Below, one piece after another: positions 18,531 through 26,969 of a DNA stretch of 64,000 nt. Position 1 is the first letter of the stretch; every line of letters begins with the position of its first letter. The notes beneath the pieces are model-generated. The model was given only the letters and a program-made list of their open reading frames with translations. It had not been told where the DNA came from and made no database searches. The DNA lies in the NCBI GenBank assembly GCA_006247105.1, contig CM016925.1:992001-1056000 (forward strand), in the 5' to 3' direction. Position numbers and translations under genes: made by a program. The DNA comes from Giardia muris. Taxonomy: Eukaryota; Fornicata; Diplomonadida; Hexamitidae.

Positions 18531-19024
18531 TGCCATCCTGGTCGAGCCATGTTGCCTTCAACGACCCAAAACTCCGAGAGGAGGGGTCGACAGAGGAGGA
18601 CTTGGTCCTTGCGTACTTCTTACGATCCCCTTTCTATTCTAACGATCCATGTCGTGATATCTATTCGACTGGTCGTCGACCAACCGAATTTAAGCGTTGG
18701 ATAGAGCGGCACCCCGAGGAGGTCGGGCACTGCTTTGAGGATGACAAGATTGAGCGTGGAGAGACGATCATTTACGGCATTATCGAATCCTGTCTTCCGA
18801 GAAGTGCATTGATTGGAGGGTACTTTTTGAAGCCAGATCGGACCGTTGCTCAGACTCCCGTCACCATGCATTGTTATCTTGGTGAAGACGCTAGGATCTA
18901 TAAGCTCCCAACCTTCAAACGTTACCTTGACGTGGTTGCACATAACGTCCAGTTTGCTCTTTCGCATGCAGCACAAGAGATTCGTAGACGAGCGGAAGAG
19001 GCAGAGGAAGAGGGGGATTGGTAG
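18509..19024 (+). CDS. Mediator subunit MED6-like
   Basis: Probable head-module subunit of Mediator, which links activators to RNA polymerase II. The 171-aa protein shows the two MED6 signature regions. First, VLAYFLRSPFYSNDPCRDIY (about residues 33-52) resembles VLxYFxxSPFYDxxSNNExL. Second, TPVTMHCYLGEDARIYKLPT (116-135), followed by YLDVVAHNVQFALSHA, resembles the PxxxYYIxxGxIYQAPxxxxVxxSR...LxxAFxxA block. The C-terminus is a short acidic/Arg helix. Identity rests on motif resemblance only. The start at 18509 has the context CAAAAATG; an in-frame ATG at 18530 overlaps the upstream stop as TGATG and is an alternative. Confidence 0.6.
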   Translation: MEDTSLLMPSWSSHVAFNDPKLREEGSTEEDLVLAYFLRSPFYSNDPCRDIYSTGRRPTEFKRWIERHPEEVGHCFEDDKIERGETIIYGIIESCLPRSALIGGYFLKPDRTVAQTPVTMHCYLGEDARIYKLPTFKRYLDVVAHNVQFALSHAAQEIRRRAEEAEEEGDW

Positions 19025-19028
19025 TAAA
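19023..19028 (+). terminator. Poly(A) signal AGTAAA merged with stop and next initiator
   Basis: TAGTAAAAATATG combines the MED6-like stop (TAG, 19022-19024), an AGTAAA signal and the A-rich initiator of the next gene (ATG at 19032) within 13 bp. Confidence 0.6.
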
Positions 19029-19031
19029 AAT

Positions 19032-22000
19032 ATGACCAAGGAAGAGAATGTCATCATAGCTAGTGAGCAAGTCATAGAGGAGATCCGTTCGCCAGTCTTC
19101 TTAAACGAGGTATTGAACAATGCGCATGGATATGCATGCACCTTGCTTGATGGGGGTGCGAACGCAGAGGAATGCGTCCCTCAAGCCTTACTTGCTTTGG
19201 GGAAGTGCCGTAGTCTCGTTAACTTCTTAAGCTTCTTATTACCACTTTATCCGACCTTAGGTGCATCGTTAGTATCAAGGGCGAAGAGCCGTTTCCTAGC
19301 CAAATGGACGATATCGCATGATATTTTCCGTCTCCATCGTTTCCTTGATAGCTTCGACGTCACCCCTAACGTCGTTCATGGGAGTTGCGACCCTGTCTAT
19401 AGAGCCGATCGTGCAGTCACTATTCTTTCAAGACGAACAGGTACTACTAAGTTTCTTGCGCGCTGGCCTTTCATCACTCCTCCATATGACTCCTTGCAGG
19501 TAGAAAAGGACGTATATGACCGTGATGTCAAGGAACAGTATCGAAAAGCTCGTGAGGATTGGATTTGTCGCTATCTTCTTCGAGAACACAAGCTTGATAG
19601 GATGTCGATTGGGATCATGAATAATACCGTCTATCTTCAAACTGCTCTATATCATTGCTCTCTGGATTCGAATCCAAATTATTATCTCGAAGAGAACATA
19701 CCAGTATTGCCCCTTCTTTCTCCACGGATCATCTTTCGTTCCCCAATCTTCCGCCAGATGAATAAGCTCCAGAAACAGGTGGGAATTCTTGTTACAGAAG
19801 GGATCGGAAACATAGACATACAATCGAATTCATGTCGAATCGATAGACCTATGCGTATCCATAGACTTCTACGCGTAGATGCATGCATAGTTGCCTCGGT
19901 TGCTGTACATGTGGCTCATGACGTCTGGATGGAAGCCATTGCCACTAAACCCAATATTGATAACTGTGGCCTCTTTACAAACCCTGAGTTCTTATCGAAC
20001 CCAGAGAAGGTCGTTCAGACCGTGAGCGAATGCTTATATCAGCTTTCAGTCCCATCGCTTGGGCCTCGTAACGCTCATCTTGATCGTCACTTTCTTCAAT
20101 CTCTTCTTGCACCAATTTTCGTTATTGCTTGTAAGGTCCCGGATGCCGAGGAGGTACGCCAGGCCGTAGACGAGCTTGGAGGTTGTTATGCACGAGACCT
20201 GAAGGCTGAGGAACGCGAGTTTTTCGGTGGTTTGACAAATGTAGATGAAACGAAGAAGTCAACAGTTCGGGATCTATCTAATGTTCGGACTTCAAACTAT
20301 GCCCTTTTCTTCTTCCGGATTTGCTATCACGAGCCTTATGGTTTCGTGGCGCTCTTGAATAGTGAGCAGGATGCAGATCCTGATAGGAGTAAGTTAGCAG
20401 CGCGTATCCCCTTTTTGTTGGATCAACAAGAAATGACATCTGCAAGTGACACGACGATAGTGGCCGCCCAGAAGATTCATGATCATGCCATTTCCATCTC
20501 GAAGAAGCTAGCACAAGCCACAAGACCGCACATCCAGGTTCTTACAGATCGATTACAAGCGATTTCGCAACTCAAAGACTGTGTCTTCGAAACATTGGTT
20601 GAGAACGGTGTTGCACATACCCTTCGTGTCGTTTTGAATCCAACGGCTCAAATACGGATTATTCTTGCCTTTACCCTTCAGGTGGATGACTCTCTTGAAA
20701 TATACGTTGCGGAGAAGGTTGAAAGGTGCGTCACGGAGGATATCCGTAAGGTTCTAGCTTCTGGGATATATAAGCACAAGGAGGTCATACCAGATGTCTT
20801 TGGACAACTCCGAGCGTTTCTGTTATGGCTCCTGGACGTTCCCGATGACATCTCTCTTTTCACCATCTCAAACCCATATTATCAAGAGTGTCTACGTACG
20901 GATGAGACGCAAGGCTTTATTAGGGATTCTGAGAGACGGAACGCCTTGGTCTCCCTTCTCTTCGATAAGCTTAGCTCTGCAGCCAGAATGTTCTACTTCT
21001 CCGCGGATATTCCATATGTTCGTTTCACATTATATGCGCATGAGGTGAATGCTGCACGGAAGTCATGCGAGGCAGTACGTAGACATATTCCGAACATGGA
21101 GAACATCACGCAAAGCTTTCTGGCGTACCAAGGAGGATACTTCATACCAACATTACCGGACTTTTCGTATGTCTCAGTGACGATGTGGGCTACAGATGAG
21201 GTGGAAGTCTTATTGACGTTGATCTATTTAATTCCGACCAAGTTCCATCGTCATGGCCGTATAGCGCTAGCAGAGGGCATTTCGGACGAGCAATGTATTC
21301 ATACTCAAGCACGTGTCTTCCCAATAGAAGGGAAGTTCTTGGATAGCCTTCTTTGCGATAAGCCATATCGAGGAGACTTCGACCTTGTCTACAAGACGTT
21401 TAATATCAACCTCACGATGTATAGCTCGAGTTGGCGTTCTCTTTGTCTTAGTCGTCTACATGGGCTTGTCGCGCATATCGATCAATTGTTATGGACAAAG
21501 GCCCTTGAGAAGTTCATTCTATCCACCATACCATCACAGGAAGAAGCCTGTCAAGTCCTACTTGGTTTTAAACAAGTTATGAATACATCTCAGAACAGTT
21601 ATGCGGAATATGAAATCCCGCTTTATGGCCAAGCACTGTTGCAAGGTCAAAGGCGTATTCCATTTGGGCTTCATATCTTCAAGACCTTTGAACAAACCAC
21701 GCCAGAAGCACCTCTTCTTTATCGATGGCAGCATAAGCTTACTCGACCTTTACGGCAATGTGCCACCTGCAGTTGTGACATCCGCGAGCCTTGTCGTATC
21801 AAATACCGGCGTTATATCCAGATATACTTGAATCTATATCAGGAAGGGGAAGGAGGCTTAATCCTGGGACGAAAGATTTGTCTTTTCAATGGCCAAGCGA
21901 GTTATTCGACGGTGTTTACCGTGCTTAGTTCTGTGGTACCAACGATCTACCGTACACTCCTCAATACATGTCTGGATGACCTTCTTCCTATCCATCCATA

Positions 22001-24380
22001 TATTGAACCCTTACCACCACCACCGCCGTCTTCATCATCTTCTTCGTCAAAGGAGAAGAAAAGAGACACCTTCTTCTACGATACACGCCCCTTGACAGCC
22101 CTGGATCGTTACCTCATCCTTAACGTCATCCCAAGACGGATGTGCATTTCCCTTCGGTTTGGGCTCTCAGAACTCTTTCGTTTCCTTTCCAATCATATGG
22201 CATTAAGCAAGGGAATAGACCTCTCAGGTATCAAGGATGACCCTTCTTTGACCGTCATTTTCACGTATCTTAAGTACTTGATGAGTAGCTTTTATCTACG
22301 TCGTAGCATTCGCCGTTGTACACATTCGTTCAAGCTCCCCACCCAACGGGTACCCATTGTTCCTTCTCCACGTAGACTTGCTCACCGTCAAGGAGAGATT
22401 GACCCTCGTACAGACCTGATTTATCGTCAACGGTCCTGCATCTATAATGAGACAACAAAGGACGACCTTCAGCTCAATGACCTTTATTTGAACTACAAGG
22501 ATAGGCCTCAGTACCTTTATGGCATCACAGACGAGGTTGAAGTCGTCTTCCACTTTGGGGTCACACAATTATGTCATGTCATCACCTCCCATACCGCGCG
22601 CGTCAGTTATTACCATCATTCACGCCTGGAGAGGGATAAGGGTGACAGAAGTGATAGAAGTGACAGGGGGGACAGAGGCGATAGGTTCCTGAACGTACAT
22701 CACAAGTATGCGAATATCCTTGTCGGAAGCTTTCCGGCTTATATGCTATATGAGAATGCGGCCGTTCATGTCCCTTCTAGTGACCCTTATAGTCGTCTTC
22801 CTACGACCAAGCGTTTCATGGCGAAGGTAAGTGATGCGATCACTCAGGTGGCTACTGGCGTTGGGTTACTTTTACGTCTGGCGTATCTTCCCATCTATGA
22901 ATGCGCTCCAGAGGCTAGGCCGACCTTCTTCTGTTGGGATTCTCTTACCCTCAGCTTGATTAACTCAGCAATTGAGATCCAAGCACATTTTACGACCTCG
23001 GCTCAATATTATAACGAGACAGACACAGAAATGAGTTCTCAGCACGTCCCAAGTAACCTTCCCATGTTCACACGCCTCTTACGCTTCGTTGGAATGGTCC
23101 CAGATGATAGAACCCATCAGCAATCGAATCTTCTCATTCTCACTTCACGTGTCCTTACAAACTTAGTTCCCTCGCCACTTGAGAATAGACCAGTCAATTA
23201 TGCCTTCGCATTCAACAATGGCCCGGCACATATGTATTCACAGCTATTAGAACAAGAGTCTAGAGACCCCTATCCCTTCTCACTCCAACGTCTGGATGGC
23301 ACTCTTCATAGCTTGAATTTCCAATGCATCTTCGATGCACCACCGTTTAGGGTGAGGCGTTCCAGTTCTTCTCGCCCCGGGATCTATCGTTTCTACAACT
23401 ACGAGATCCAGTTCAACTTATCATTAGGCTCGAACTTCCAGAACCCACGGGAATTACCGGCCCAATTGAGATGGTCGCGCGAGTATACGCAAAGAAAGCG
23501 TAGGATCGCGGCTGCCGAAGCCTCCGCTATGGCTTTTGCTAGGCAGGACAACATCAATCTCAAGGACTTCGCTCAGGGAATGAAGTCATTATTCAGTAAG
23601 CTTCAGCGCACGAGAAGCCACGATCTGAAGGGTGCCATCTCAAAGGGGGTATATCAGCAGATAAAGAATTTACTCCTCCAGTATTCCGTCCCCTCCTTCA
23701 TGATCGAACTGCTTAGTTTGTCACTTGATAAGCTCGAGTCGATCACTGAGATGTTCACCAGCTTCAGTGCACTGGTTGTACACTTCAACGAGCTTTCGAC
23801 CACATCTCCAAGCGACAGCCTCATCTTTGAGCTTCCTCAAGAGTGGATCACCAGGAATAGTGGACGTTTCGGGCAAACCCTCACCCCGATCATTGCGTTA
23901 GCATCACACTTGCACTGTTTCGCGGGCCGTGTAACTATCTTCGACTTTGTACGGCGCAATGCCGATGCCTTCGAAAACCCAGTCGTTCTTCGTGGTGAGA
24001 AGGTACCACAGTTCTCATTGATGAGTGTAACACGTCCAAAATGGCATATCACCATTCCTTTACAAGCTCCTCCAGAATATGATGCTGATCGGGTTCGTGT
24101 CTTACATCTAGCGGTTCTCCTCTACCCAGATATGAGCGAGTTGCCACAGGACATGTACTGGTTAGATTTCCGACAACTTGGCGTCCCACGCTTCGAGAAG
24201 TCACGACTTTTACTGGTCACGGATACGGTCGCACAATGGAACATCGACGCACGCCTCGCATATCAAGTTCGGTTCGGAGATGTTCGACTCCTTCGTGTCC
24301 TTGAGAAGGGTGCTCCCCCGAAGCATGCCTCCCAGAAGCACCCGCCCCTGGGCGCCGGGCAAGTTTGGCCGAGTGGTTAA
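19032..24380 (+). CDS. Unknown very large protein (1782 aa)
   Basis: I do not recognise this protein. It is mostly globular and rich in Leu, Tyr and Arg, without signal peptide. Landmarks are a Cys cluster CATCSCDIREPC (about residue 917), a poly-Pro/poly-Ser linker (about 994-1008; DNA 22010-22051), and a DRSDRSDRGDRGDR repeat (about 1204-1218). The frame is open to 18846, but that part overlaps the MED6-like gene. ATG 19032 follows AGTAAAAAT and is preferred. The stop TAA (24378-24380) lies inside the tRNA-Leu gene, so the last seven codons and the stop are read from tRNA sequence. It could be a scaffold or trafficking protein; no function is claimed. Confidence 0.65.
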   Translation: MTKEENVIIASEQVIEEIRSPVFLNEVLNNAHGYACTLLDGGANAEECVPQALLALGKCRSLVNFLSFLLPLYPTLGASLVSRAKSRFLAKWTISHDIFRLHRFLDSFDVTPNVVHGSCDPVYRADRAVTILSRRTGTTKFLARWPFITPPYDSLQVEKDVYDRDVKEQYRKAREDWICRYLLREHKLDRMSIGIMNNTVYLQTALYHCSLDSNPNYYLEENIPVLPLLSPRIIFRSPIFRQMNKLQKQVGILVTEGIGNIDIQSNSCRIDRPMRIHRLLRVDACIVASVAVHVAHDVWMEAIATKPNIDNCGLFTNPEFLSNPEKVVQTVSECLYQLSVPSLGPRNAHLDRHFLQSLLAPIFVIACKVPDAEEVRQAVDELGGCYARDLKAEEREFFGGLTNVDETKKSTVRDLSNVRTSNYALFFFRICYHEPYGFVALLNSEQDADPDRSKLAARIPFLLDQQEMTSASDTTIVAAQKIHDHAISISKKLAQATRPHIQVLTDRLQAISQLKDCVFETLVENGVAHTLRVVLNPTAQIRIILAFTLQVDDSLEIYVAEKVERCVTEDIRKVLASGIYKHKEVIPDVFGQLRAFLLWLLDVPDDISLFTISNPYYQECLRTDETQGFIRDSERRNALVSLLFDKLSSAARMFYFSADIPYVRFTLYAHEVNAARKSCEAVRRHIPNMENITQSFLAYQGGYFIPTLPDFSYVSVTMWATDEVEVLLTLIYLIPTKFHRHGRIALAEGISDEQCIHTQARVFPIEGKFLDSLLCDKPYRGDFDLVYKTFNINLTMYSSSWRSLCLSRLHGLVAHIDQLLWTKALEKFILSTIPSQEEACQVLLGFKQVMNTSQNSYAEYEIPLYGQALLQGQRRIPFGLHIFKTFEQTTPEAPLLYRWQHKLTRPLRQCATCSCDIREPCRIKYRRYIQIYLNLYQEGEGGLILGRKICLFNGQASYSTVFTVLSSVVPTIYRTLLNTCLDDLLPIHPYIEPLPPPPPSSSSSSSKEKKRDTFFYDTRPLTALDRYLILNVIPRRMCISLRFGLSELFRFLSNHMALSKGIDLSGIKDDPSLTVIFTYLKYLMSSFYLRRSIRRCTHSFKLPTQRVPIVPSPRRLAHRQGEIDPRTDLIYRQRSCIYNETTKDDLQLNDLYLNYKDRPQYLYGITDEVEVVFHFGVTQLCHVITSHTARVSYYHHSRLERDKGDRSDRSDRGDRGDRFLNVHHKYANILVGSFPAYMLYENAAVHVPSSDPYSRLPTTKRFMAKVSDAITQVATGVGLLLRLAYLPIYECAPEARPTFFCWDSLTLSLINSAIEIQAHFTTSAQYYNETDTEMSSQHVPSNLPMFTRLLRFVGMVPDDRTHQQSNLLILTSRVLTNLVPSPLENRPVNYAFAFNNGPAHMYSQLLEQESRDPYPFSLQRLDGTLHSLNFQCIFDAPPFRVRRSSSSRPGIYRFYNYEIQFNLSLGSNFQNPRELPAQLRWSREYTQRKRRIAAAEASAMAFARQDNINLKDFAQGMKSLFSKLQRTRSHDLKGAISKGVYQQIKNLLLQYSVPSFMIELLSLSLDKLESITEMFTSFSALVVHFNELSTTSPSDSLIFELPQEWITRNSGRFGQTLTPIIALASHLHCFAGRVTIFDFVRRNADAFENPVVLRGEKVPQFSLMSVTRPKWHITIPLQAPPEYDADRVRVLHLAVLLYPDMSELPQDMYWLDFRQLGVPRFEKSRLLLVTDTVAQWNIDARLAYQVRFGDVRLLRVLEKGAPPKHASQKHPPLGAGQVWPSG

Positions 24381-24441
24381 GGCGCCACGTTCAGGTCGTG
24401 GTGGGAGTCATCCCGCGTGGGTTCGAGCCCCACAGCTTGCA
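24359..24441 (+). tRNA. tRNA-Leu (anticodon CAG)
   Basis: An 83-nt cloverleaf without intron. The acceptor stem is GCAAGTT/AGCTTGC with one G-U pair and discriminator A. The D arm is GCC...GGC. The anticodon stem is CCACG/CGTGG with loop TTCAGGT, giving CAG at 24392-24394. A long variable arm (GGGA/TCCC) is typical for class II tRNA-Leu. The T arm is GTGGG-TTCGAGC-CCCAC. The internal promoter A box TGGCCGAGTGG and B box GGTTCGAGCCC are present. The downstream T stretch is short (TTT at 24443). The 5' 22 nt overlap the end of the 1782-aa coding sequence. Confidence 0.95.
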
Positions 24442-24530
24442 CTTTCGCGTATATTTACAAAAGGGAGGTATTGAGCATCGTGCCTATAGACTTCGGACTG
24501 GGTCAGGAACAGGGAGAATATACGTTTCCT

Positions 24531-26969
24531 TTAGTCTTTTGGTCCGAAGGAGCTTCTAGATAGGTTGTGGGCTGGTTCTTGCTTAATCATCTTGAGTTGA
24601 GGCTCTTGGAAAGGCTTTTTAGTGTGCGACAAGGTGAGTGGCGACTGAGATAGGGCTTCATCAACACTGATATCGGAATCGTCTTGACCACAAGCCTGTG
24701 GACTATGCTGTTTGTTCTCGAATATTTCTTGAGGCTTCCCTCTTAACATAGCGGTAAGTTGGGCTTGTGGGCTAGTGACTAGGTCTCTTTGAAGGGTCAT
24801 CTTCCGTTGGAGGAGATGCATGTCAGACTTCAAGTTAGCGATTTTGGTTTCTCTCTCGCGGAGGTTTTTGTTGAGTGATTCGGCTTCAGCCTCCTTATAG
24901 GCCAGGGTGTTTTGGAGTGTGTCCTTCTCGGTCCTAAGAGTATCGATTTGGCCTTGTAGCTCCTCGAAGGTCTTGAGTTCTCTCTTCAGCCTAACGGCGT
25001 CAGCTTTGAGCTCATTGATCTCTTTCTCCTGGCTATCCTTCACCTTCTTATGAGCTGTGAGTTCTTTGGCCGCGTTTTCGAGACGACGATTGAGTGAATT
25101 GCACATGGTGGAAAGGTCAGACTCCGATTCCTTGAGAGCATTGCACTGTGCCTTCTGGTCCTCCAATTGTCTCTCCAATTCGTCGTTCTTTGCTATGACC
25201 ACATTGTATCGATCCTCATGTTCCTTGATATCAGCCTCATACCTCTTCTGAAGGTTGTTGCACTTCTTTCTTAAGCCTTCTGATTTCTTCTGTTCATTGG
25301 CCACCACCTGTTCGAGGAGAGCCGTTTGCCCATTAAGATCTGAGAGCATGTTTGTCGTGGTTTTATGACATGCTTCCAGGTCGGTATGTTTATTTTCCAG
25401 GACATTCATGTTGTTCTTCAGGGTGTCATATTCGTTTTGGAGCCGCTGTAAGCACTCAGTCAGTTGAGCGGCCTCTGCTCCCTTCTTATTCAGTTGGGAT
25501 TGCATACCTGCCTTTTCTTGGACGAGGTGTGCATTCTTAGCTTTCAATTGCTTGACTAATGCGCCATTCTCATCAACCATCTTCGACAGCGTATCCTGTT
25601 GCGCCTTTGCCTCACTAAGCTCAGCGTTTAAACCATTACGAGAGGCGTCGAGGCGGTTAATGCTGGCTTCCAGCGCTGCACTCTTTCTCCGTTCAGACTC
25701 CAATTGAGTTTGAGTTGTCGCAATCAGATCACTAAGTGTAATGTGTTTCCCATTCAGCTCGGATATCGTATCCTCCTTTTCCTTAAGCTTCTTCGTAGTC
25801 TCGTCCCTTTCTTGGGTTAGTCTTTTGTTTTGAGCCTCCAGACACAAGTGATTCTTCTGTGCTTCCTTTTTTTGTGTTTGAATGGCATCTTGAAGGTCTC
25901 TGATGCGTTGAAGTAAACCCTGGTTCTCAAGCCGAAGGGCATCGACTTCAGTGGTTCGTTGACGAAGGAGTTGAAGCTCTTTTGTAGCATTACTTTGAGT
26001 CTTCCTCAATCTTTCCTTCTCCTGAGTGAGAAGGGAGTTCTCGCTTCGTACTCGATCAAGTCTTGCGCGGGTTTTCTCAGTGCTTTGAGTTAGCTCCAGA
26101 ATCTTTTGTCGAAGATGTCGTACGCGTTCCTTCCCCATATCCGCCATCAGAAGAGCTTCATCACGTTCCTTCACACACGATTCCAACCGCTTTTGAAGGG
26201 AGAGGATGATGTCGGGGCTAAGAGGGGGTGGTGGTGACATGGCGAAATTAGAAGACTGCGAAGAGATAGGAAAGGCATGCATTGGAGTGGGGTTGCTCTC
26301 ATATTCCTGAAGAAGAGCACGGCAACGGGAATAATCGCCCTTCAAGGGGTTTCCAGTAATATCAAGAGGGTGTTCTGCATGCCATAACGCTGTATGACCA
26401 GCCTCATCACATAAATCGTATTCATACGGTAAAAGAACACTGACAATCTCCGGATGGTTCCAACGCGCCGCAAGCATCAAGGCGGACATTCCAATGGGGT
26501 AGTCGCCCCACCGTTGTATTGTTTGATCTCGTGCCTCGACGAGCAATGCATTAACACTAGTGAGATGGCCATGACAAGCGGCACGCATAAGGGCCGTCGC
26601 ACCATTAGCATCCTGGATCCTACTCTCGCAAAAACTAAGAAGCGAGACGCATTCGTGATGGCCCTTCAAGGCGGCTAACATTAAGGGGGTCCAATGATCA
26701 TTCGTTTGTACTTGAGCCTCGACCCCAATCAAAACCCTAACGATGTCGGTATGCCCATTATCAGCCGCAAAATGTAAGGCGTAGAGCCCCTGTGGAGTAC
26801 ATAGCTTAGCTTCGTGAGGAAGAAGAAGACAAACACAATGGAAATGTCCATTGTTTGCAGCGTGCATGAGGGCGGTCATTCCATCAGAGTCCTTCTCGCC
26901 CGCTTGAGAGATGAGGCGTTGCACCTCCAAAACCTCTCCAACCTTGGCGGCCTCAATGAGGCTGCTCAT
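24531..26969 (-). CDS. Ankyrin-repeat and coiled-coil protein ('protein 21.1' type)
   Basis: An 812-aa protein. Residues 1 to about 225 form six to seven ankyrin repeats with TALM-type cores (GMTALMHAANNGH, NGATALMRAACHGH, GMSALMLAARWNH). Residues about 255-750 are one continuous coiled coil rich in Lys, Glu, Gln and Leu heptads. The C-terminal 60 residues are polar. This ankyrin-then-coiled-coil layout is common among Giardia 21.1-type proteins, many of which are cytoskeletal, but the partner is unknown. The start is preceded by AAATAACCAAC. The gene converges on the tRNA-Leu gene with an 89-bp spacer and heads the long minus-strand block of the window. Confidence 0.88.
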   Translation of the reverse strand: MSSLIEAAKVGEVLEVQRLISQAGEKDSDGMTALMHAANNGHFHCVCLLLPHEAKLCTPQGLYALHFAADNGHTDIVRVLIGVEAQVQTNDHWTPLMLAALKGHHECVSLLSFCESRIQDANGATALMRAACHGHLTSVNALLVEARDQTIQRWGDYPIGMSALMLAARWNHPEIVSVLLPYEYDLCDEAGHTALWHAEHPLDITGNPLKGDYSRCRALLQEYESNPTPMHAFPISSQSSNFAMSPPPPLSPDIILSLQKRLESCVKERDEALLMADMGKERVRHLRQKILELTQSTEKTRARLDRVRSENSLLTQEKERLRKTQSNATKELQLLRQRTTEVDALRLENQGLLQRIRDLQDAIQTQKKEAQKNHLCLEAQNKRLTQERDETTKKLKEKEDTISELNGKHITLSDLIATTQTQLESERRKSAALEASINRLDASRNGLNAELSEAKAQQDTLSKMVDENGALVKQLKAKNAHLVQEKAGMQSQLNKKGAEAAQLTECLQRLQNEYDTLKNNMNVLENKHTDLEACHKTTTNMLSDLNGQTALLEQVVANEQKKSEGLRKKCNNLQKRYEADIKEHEDRYNVVIAKNDELERQLEDQKAQCNALKESESDLSTMCNSLNRRLENAAKELTAHKKVKDSQEKEINELKADAVRLKRELKTFEELQGQIDTLRTEKDTLQNTLAYKEAEAESLNKNLRERETKIANLKSDMHLLQRKMTLQRDLVTSPQAQLTAMLRGKPQEIFENKQHSPQACGQDDSDISVDEALSQSPLTLSHTKKPFQEPQLKMIKQEPAHNLSRSSFGPKD

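Follow-up and report, generated by a model that had tools for sequence, protein, structure and literature searches.

A Giardia muris reading frame with its stop codon in a tRNA-Leu gene: a probable one-base length difference near the presumed inherited end

Reading frame and tRNA gene at the locus

The window examined here, a 64,000-nt stretch of the Giardia muris genome, contains an ORF on the + strand (18966-24380) that encodes 1804 aa from its first ATG. A further in-frame ATG at 19032 is residue 23 of that ORF and opens a reading frame of 1782 codons plus a stop (19032-24380, + strand). The start at 19032 is supported by P0002, the relative described below, since P0002 has its first residue there and lacks the 22 residues that the ATG at 18966 would add. 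The window protein, P0001, has no assigned function; it matched no Pfam family at E <= 1 (nor at E <= 0.001 in an earlier scan) and no PDB entry at E <= 1. A Pfam match of P0002 to GlpM (E 0.0077) fell below the cut-off and was taken as chance.

The end of the frame runs into a tRNA-Leu(CAG) gene on the same strand. The tRNA gene is intact, being recognized by ARAGORN at 24359-24442 and by Rfam (RF00005) at 24359-24441 (54.8 bits, E 5.8e-11), and it carries the sole CAG anticodon among the tRNAs read in the genome. Compared with the commonly quoted consensus sequences, it has an A-box match at 24366-24376 that starts at tRNA position 8, a second A-box match that begins at position 16, and a B-box match at 24420-24430 (tRNA position 62), all on the + strand. 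Its tRNA fold together with A and B boxes places it among the Pol III type 2 (tRNA) genes, and it is presumably an ordinary Pol III gene that is transcribed independently. No run of four T occurs within 80 nt downstream, the sole T run nearby being TTT at 24443-24445 (+ strand). Lack of TTTT is the norm in this genome, since only 11 of the 63 tRNA genes found, a lower bound (the published genome is given 68; PMC7641422), have TTTT within 80 nt, and 6 of the 63 have it within 20 nt. Among 56 distinct 30-nt tRNA trailers, TTT is present in 45 (shuffle mean 24) and TTTT in 7 (shuffle mean 7.3), and Pol III termination may take place with three T in this genome.

The first in-frame stop of the long frame is the TAA at 24378-24380 (+ strand), which forms positions 20-22 of the tRNA in the D loop. 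The initial annotation had reported this absence of any earlier stop as well as the location of box A within the tRNA-derived end of the frame, and the sequence confirms both. The frame and tRNA-Leu(CAG) share 22 nt (24359-24380) and form an overlapping gene pair in the sense of having bases in common. The shared bases comprise the third base of a GGG codon, six whole sense codons and the stop, so that the seven tRNA-derived codons first counted amount to six whole codons and a single base of the seventh.

The end of the gene in its only relative

Among 5.8 billion proteins a single relative was found, P0002, which has 1735 aa and shares 82% identity over 97% of the query. A profile search added no further one. 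When P0001 was used to scan viral_contigs and genome_contigs, 3 and 29 pattern matches, respectively, were obtained, and none of them was a relative. P0002 aligns collinearly with the window frame as far as residue 1778 and has just one more residue before its end (...RFGDVRLLRIP), and the window frame runs 26 residues past residue 1778. At the place of P0002's end (24294-24304, + strand) the window frame reads R-V, and another frame reads CCT TGA (24299-24304), i.e., a Pro codon directly followed by a stop (TGA, 24302-24304). The remaining stretch before the tRNA (24300-24358, + strand) is both the tRNA 5' flank and an extension of the frame that has no counterpart in P0002. Comparison with a relative had been proposed as a check on the tRNA-embedded end, and that end is not common to P0002, which stops about 25 residues earlier; this is a comparison at the protein level with one relative, a single predicted protein that is the one member on one contig of 14.8 kb.

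We consider it fairly probable that the inherited end of the gene lies about 26 codons upstream of the tRNA-embedded stop, where P0002 ends, and that the overlap arose from a one-base length difference near that point without any special machinery. The inherited stop would have been left out of frame, the frame would then continue through the tRNA 5' flank, and it would take the first stop that the tRNA offers, in the D loop. As judged from the two sequences, the one-base difference is the most likely source of the last 26 or so codons, and it is doubtful that the true end of the frame is in the tRNA. The case for a one-base difference is strong, though it is not proof. The initial annotation had named an indel giving an earlier stop as the result that would overturn its reading. 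An out-of-frame TGA is indeed present at P0002's end; the indel that would have displaced it is deduced from the alignment.

Both a real mutation in this lineage and a residual assembly error are possible. According to its published account, the assembly was built from PacBio data (HGAP, Quiver), and Illumina reads served to correct 8 deletions, 46 insertions and 16 SNPs; most of these corrections concerned indels that had been seen to shift a reading frame. The genes were curated manually with RNA-seq (PMC7641422). Illumina correction and RNA-seq curation, as described there, lower the odds of an assembly error. The genome was published as 9.8 Mbp in 59 contigs with 54.7% G+C (PMC7641422), and the sequence scanned here comprised 9,737,486 bases in 52 contigs. 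Ankyrin and kinase families, a high gene density and AGTRAA at stop codons are found in it.

Two other readings accept the longer end. One possibility, which we regard as doubtful though worth weighing, is that the overlap is a true one: the protein would really end in tRNA-Leu sequence whatever the origin of that end, the mRNA 3' end would lie inside or beyond the tRNA, and Pol III would make the tRNA separately. The assembled frame, which has no earlier stop, favors a true overlap, and the absence of the extension from P0002 and the out-of-frame Pro-stop at P0002's end speak against it. The other is that the longer end is ancestral and the end of P0002 was shortened or wrongly predicted. With a single known relative, two sequences cannot be polarised, which leaves room for an ancestral longer end; we nonetheless consider this quite improbable, because the window has its own out-of-frame stop at P0002's end and after the same residue (Pro).

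Composition and coding content of the extension

The 59 nt before the tRNA (24300-24358) have a G+C content of 0.71 vs 0.52 for the window (51.7%). The last 40 nt upstream of the 63 tRNAs have a G+C content of 0.64 to 0.79 per 10-nt bin, and the extension is thus composed like a tRNA 5' flank, a further point against a true overlap. The codon content of the extension, on the other hand, is compatible with coding and favors one. Ranked among real-frame windows, the codon score of the 20 codons before the tRNA is at the 25th percentile, and among off-frame windows free of stops it is at the 94th; the corresponding figures for the 26 codons to the stop are the 6th and 80th percentiles. A less fair comparison, with off-frame windows containing stops, placed the extension at the 9th percentile of real-frame and the 96th of off-frame windows. 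The other two frames of the extension score below the assembled frame. By codon content the extension is not clearly non-coding, which leans mildly against the explanation by a one-base difference, and our confidence in that explanation is lowered because both codon scorings lean against a plainly non-coding extension.

A run-on of about 26 codons in a frame that has passed its own stop is unremarkable, given that 51 to 59% of the sense frames upstream of tRNAs are open. In each of six 60-nt blocks upstream of the 63 tRNAs, blocks that take in coding sequence as well, 96 to 111 of the 189 sense frames are open. We considered whether the G+C-rich flanks hold frames open, and rejected this idea on finding 111/189 open frames in the block that touches the tRNA vs 96 to 111 in the other five. 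The notion that tRNAs are special donors of stops was likewise rejected: in 45 unique tRNAs, 86 of the 135 sense frames contain a stop, and shuffled sequences give 78 on average (range 64-94). In these 45 tRNAs, first stops lie most often at positions 8, 13 and 20. The signal AGTRAA does not occur on the + strand in 24001-24800, and hence at neither of the two stops; its absence is weak evidence, AGTGAA and AGTAAA being near at most 43 of 134 stops.

Transcription and 3' end formation

The initial annotation had envisaged one DNA stretch serving both a Pol II mRNA 3' end and a Pol III promoter and gene body. The two genes do share DNA; that the protein gene was built to end there is doubtful in light of P0002's earlier end and the out-of-frame Pro-stop in the window. 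As a general idea for this genome, such double use of a stretch would be plausible, because other frames end in or against tRNAs and because a poly(A)-site table for G. intestinalis WB gives a median of 80 nt, taken here as the 3' UTR length (PMC3610916). The same source reports that 46.8% of the G. intestinalis WB poly(A) sites lack a prominent signal (PMC3610916), and on these two figures an mRNA with its stop at 24302 would often end in or beyond the tRNA. In the reading that we prefer, with the inherited end upstream, tRNA-Leu(CAG) would be transcribed alone by Pol III next to a Pol II protein gene. The 3' ends of neighboring genes often reach to or into tRNAs in this very compact genome, and no special machinery would be required.

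In animal mitochondria, tRNA punctuation operates, in which excision of a tRNA by RNase P makes the mRNA 3' end. The locus resembles that arrangement in having a protein frame that abuts or overlaps a same-strand tRNA, and differs from it in that excision here would remove the stop and in that tRNA-Leu(CAG) has its own A and B boxes. Processing of the tRNA out of the mRNA, as had been suggested for this locus, would require one transcript over both genes from which RNase P excision of the tRNA forms the mRNA 3' end. There is a partial precedent in Giardia, where ncRNAs can share a precursor with a downstream ORF and are then cut out, these being snoRNA- or snRNA-like ncRNAs rather than tRNAs in the data reported (PMC3510501). 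Nevertheless, we give tRNA punctuation hardly any weight, because excision at 24358/24359 removes the only in-frame stop and leaves the assembled frame without one. No in-frame stop precedes 24359, and a cut at the tRNA 5' end would therefore leave an incomplete frame whose last bases, GG, could not be made into a stop by polyadenylation. Excision of the tRNA and ordinary translation would be mutually exclusive for any one molecule.

Relation to known overlaps

Overlap between neighboring genes in G. muris has already been published: 441 genes (9.5%) overlap their neighbors, by 21 bp on average, and the median intergenic distance is 37 bp (PMC7641422). These genes speak for a true overlap at the present locus, which is like them in that the end of a gene shares bases with the next gene, here over 22 nt. 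It differs in that the extension is absent from the relative P0002, and the published account as consulted does not state whether tRNA genes are among the 441 (PMC7641422). Relative to that account, the locus is one more, doubtful, instance of compaction. Nucleomorphs, which likewise have very compact eukaryotic genomes, show overlapping transcription in which small-RNA and protein genes have 13-43 nt in common; the overlaps described there involve other small RNAs and have read support (PMC6461891), whereas here the small RNA is a tRNA and the overlap is read from the assembly. A literature search of titles and the starts of abstracts did not find nuclear protein genes ending inside tRNA genes, which is weak evidence of absence.

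tRNA overlaps elsewhere in the genome

Among ORFs of at least 150 aa, 25 end on the same strand within 100 nt before a tRNA or in it, and 7 of these enter the tRNA (6 stop inside and 1 ends 8 nt past it), a proportion that favors a true overlap at the locus. Of 28 convergent ORFs that end in a tRNA or no more than 100 nt from one, five overlap it. Cases of 100-149 aa, e.g., at C5:124222, C4:372905, C1:2429966 and C2:1203304 (contig:position), fall outside this count. The six inside stops begin at tRNA positions 8, 13, 13, 20, 33 and 33, which are all positions where first stops are relatively frequent in tRNAs. Two of the cases, both at tRNA-Ile with near-identical flanks and a stop ending at +35, may be one event, and the same holds for two convergent cases on C5. 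Overlap with a tRNA is not unusual in this genome, and the locus is a doubtful instance of ordinary genome compaction.

The overlap of a TrmO homologue with tRNA-Glu(TTC) is the best-supported sense overlap and, on sequence comparison, appears better supported than that at tRNA-Leu(CAG). The homologue (353 aa; TrmO_N, PF01980; L059:1454-2572, contig C1 of G000) has its stop five codons, stop included, into tRNA-Glu(TTC) at 2020358-2020429, the only tRNA-Glu(TTC) found in the genome. Its C-terminal part is common to P0004 (37% by BLAST, 42% in the alignment) up to an FY that lies eight codons before the tRNA; nine residues follow the FY in P0004 and twelve in the homologue from the window's genome, of which the final LGMV, like the stop, is encoded by tRNA sequence. 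This overlap looks genuine, though P0004 is a distant protein and its tail aligns loosely, and a frame that is conserved almost to a tRNA and stops inside it lends support to a true overlap in the window as well.

It is conceivable, if unlikely, that a class of protein genes genuinely ends in same-strand tRNAs, with the TrmO homologue and tRNA-Glu(TTC) as its best example and perhaps the window gene and tRNA-Leu(CAG) as another, and that a transcript spanning both genes serves as mRNA or as tRNA precursor and not as both. In that event tRNA processing would be coupled to mRNA fate. If sense overlaps of the TrmO type are real, they would show how a Pol III promoter and the formation of a Pol II 3' end make use of the same bases in a nucleus, and whether an mRNA can be ruined when RNase P takes away its stop codon. 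The TrmO homologue and its tRNA deserve more attention than the tRNA-Leu(CAG) locus. The main lesson of the locus itself is one of caution: where a gene seems to end within a tRNA, comparison with a relative should come before any proposal of a mechanism.

Several smaller observations concern individual tRNAs. The two tRNA-Ile(GAT) cases (L007, C1:1437158; L008, C1:1508876) involve similar kinase frames with near-identical flanks and a stop at tRNA positions 33-35. Both frames look truncated, the Pfam kinase match stopping at profile position 199 of 263. Two tRNA-Gly(GCC) genes, at C2:34196 and C3:1011971, have identical 60-nt upstream flanks, but they differ in the convergent frame, whose stop is 5 nt short of the tRNA in one copy and which overlaps the tRNA by 60 nt in the other. 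TTYACT occurs just after some tRNAs, e.g., at C1:2435246, C1:1957856 and C2:984699. TTYACT(C) in tRNA trailers was considered as a Giardia ncRNA processing motif and rejected, since 12 of 15 occurrences, read on the opposite strand, are the AG-TRA-A of a convergent frame that is open over at least 100 codons leading up to it. Convergent mRNAs with such a stop and poly(A) signal at a tRNA trailer probably end antisense within the tRNA gene. Finally, a tRNA at C4:903896 (L057), left unassigned by ARAGORN with a four-base anticodon (gtag), is perhaps, as a guess, an intron-containing tRNA-Tyr.
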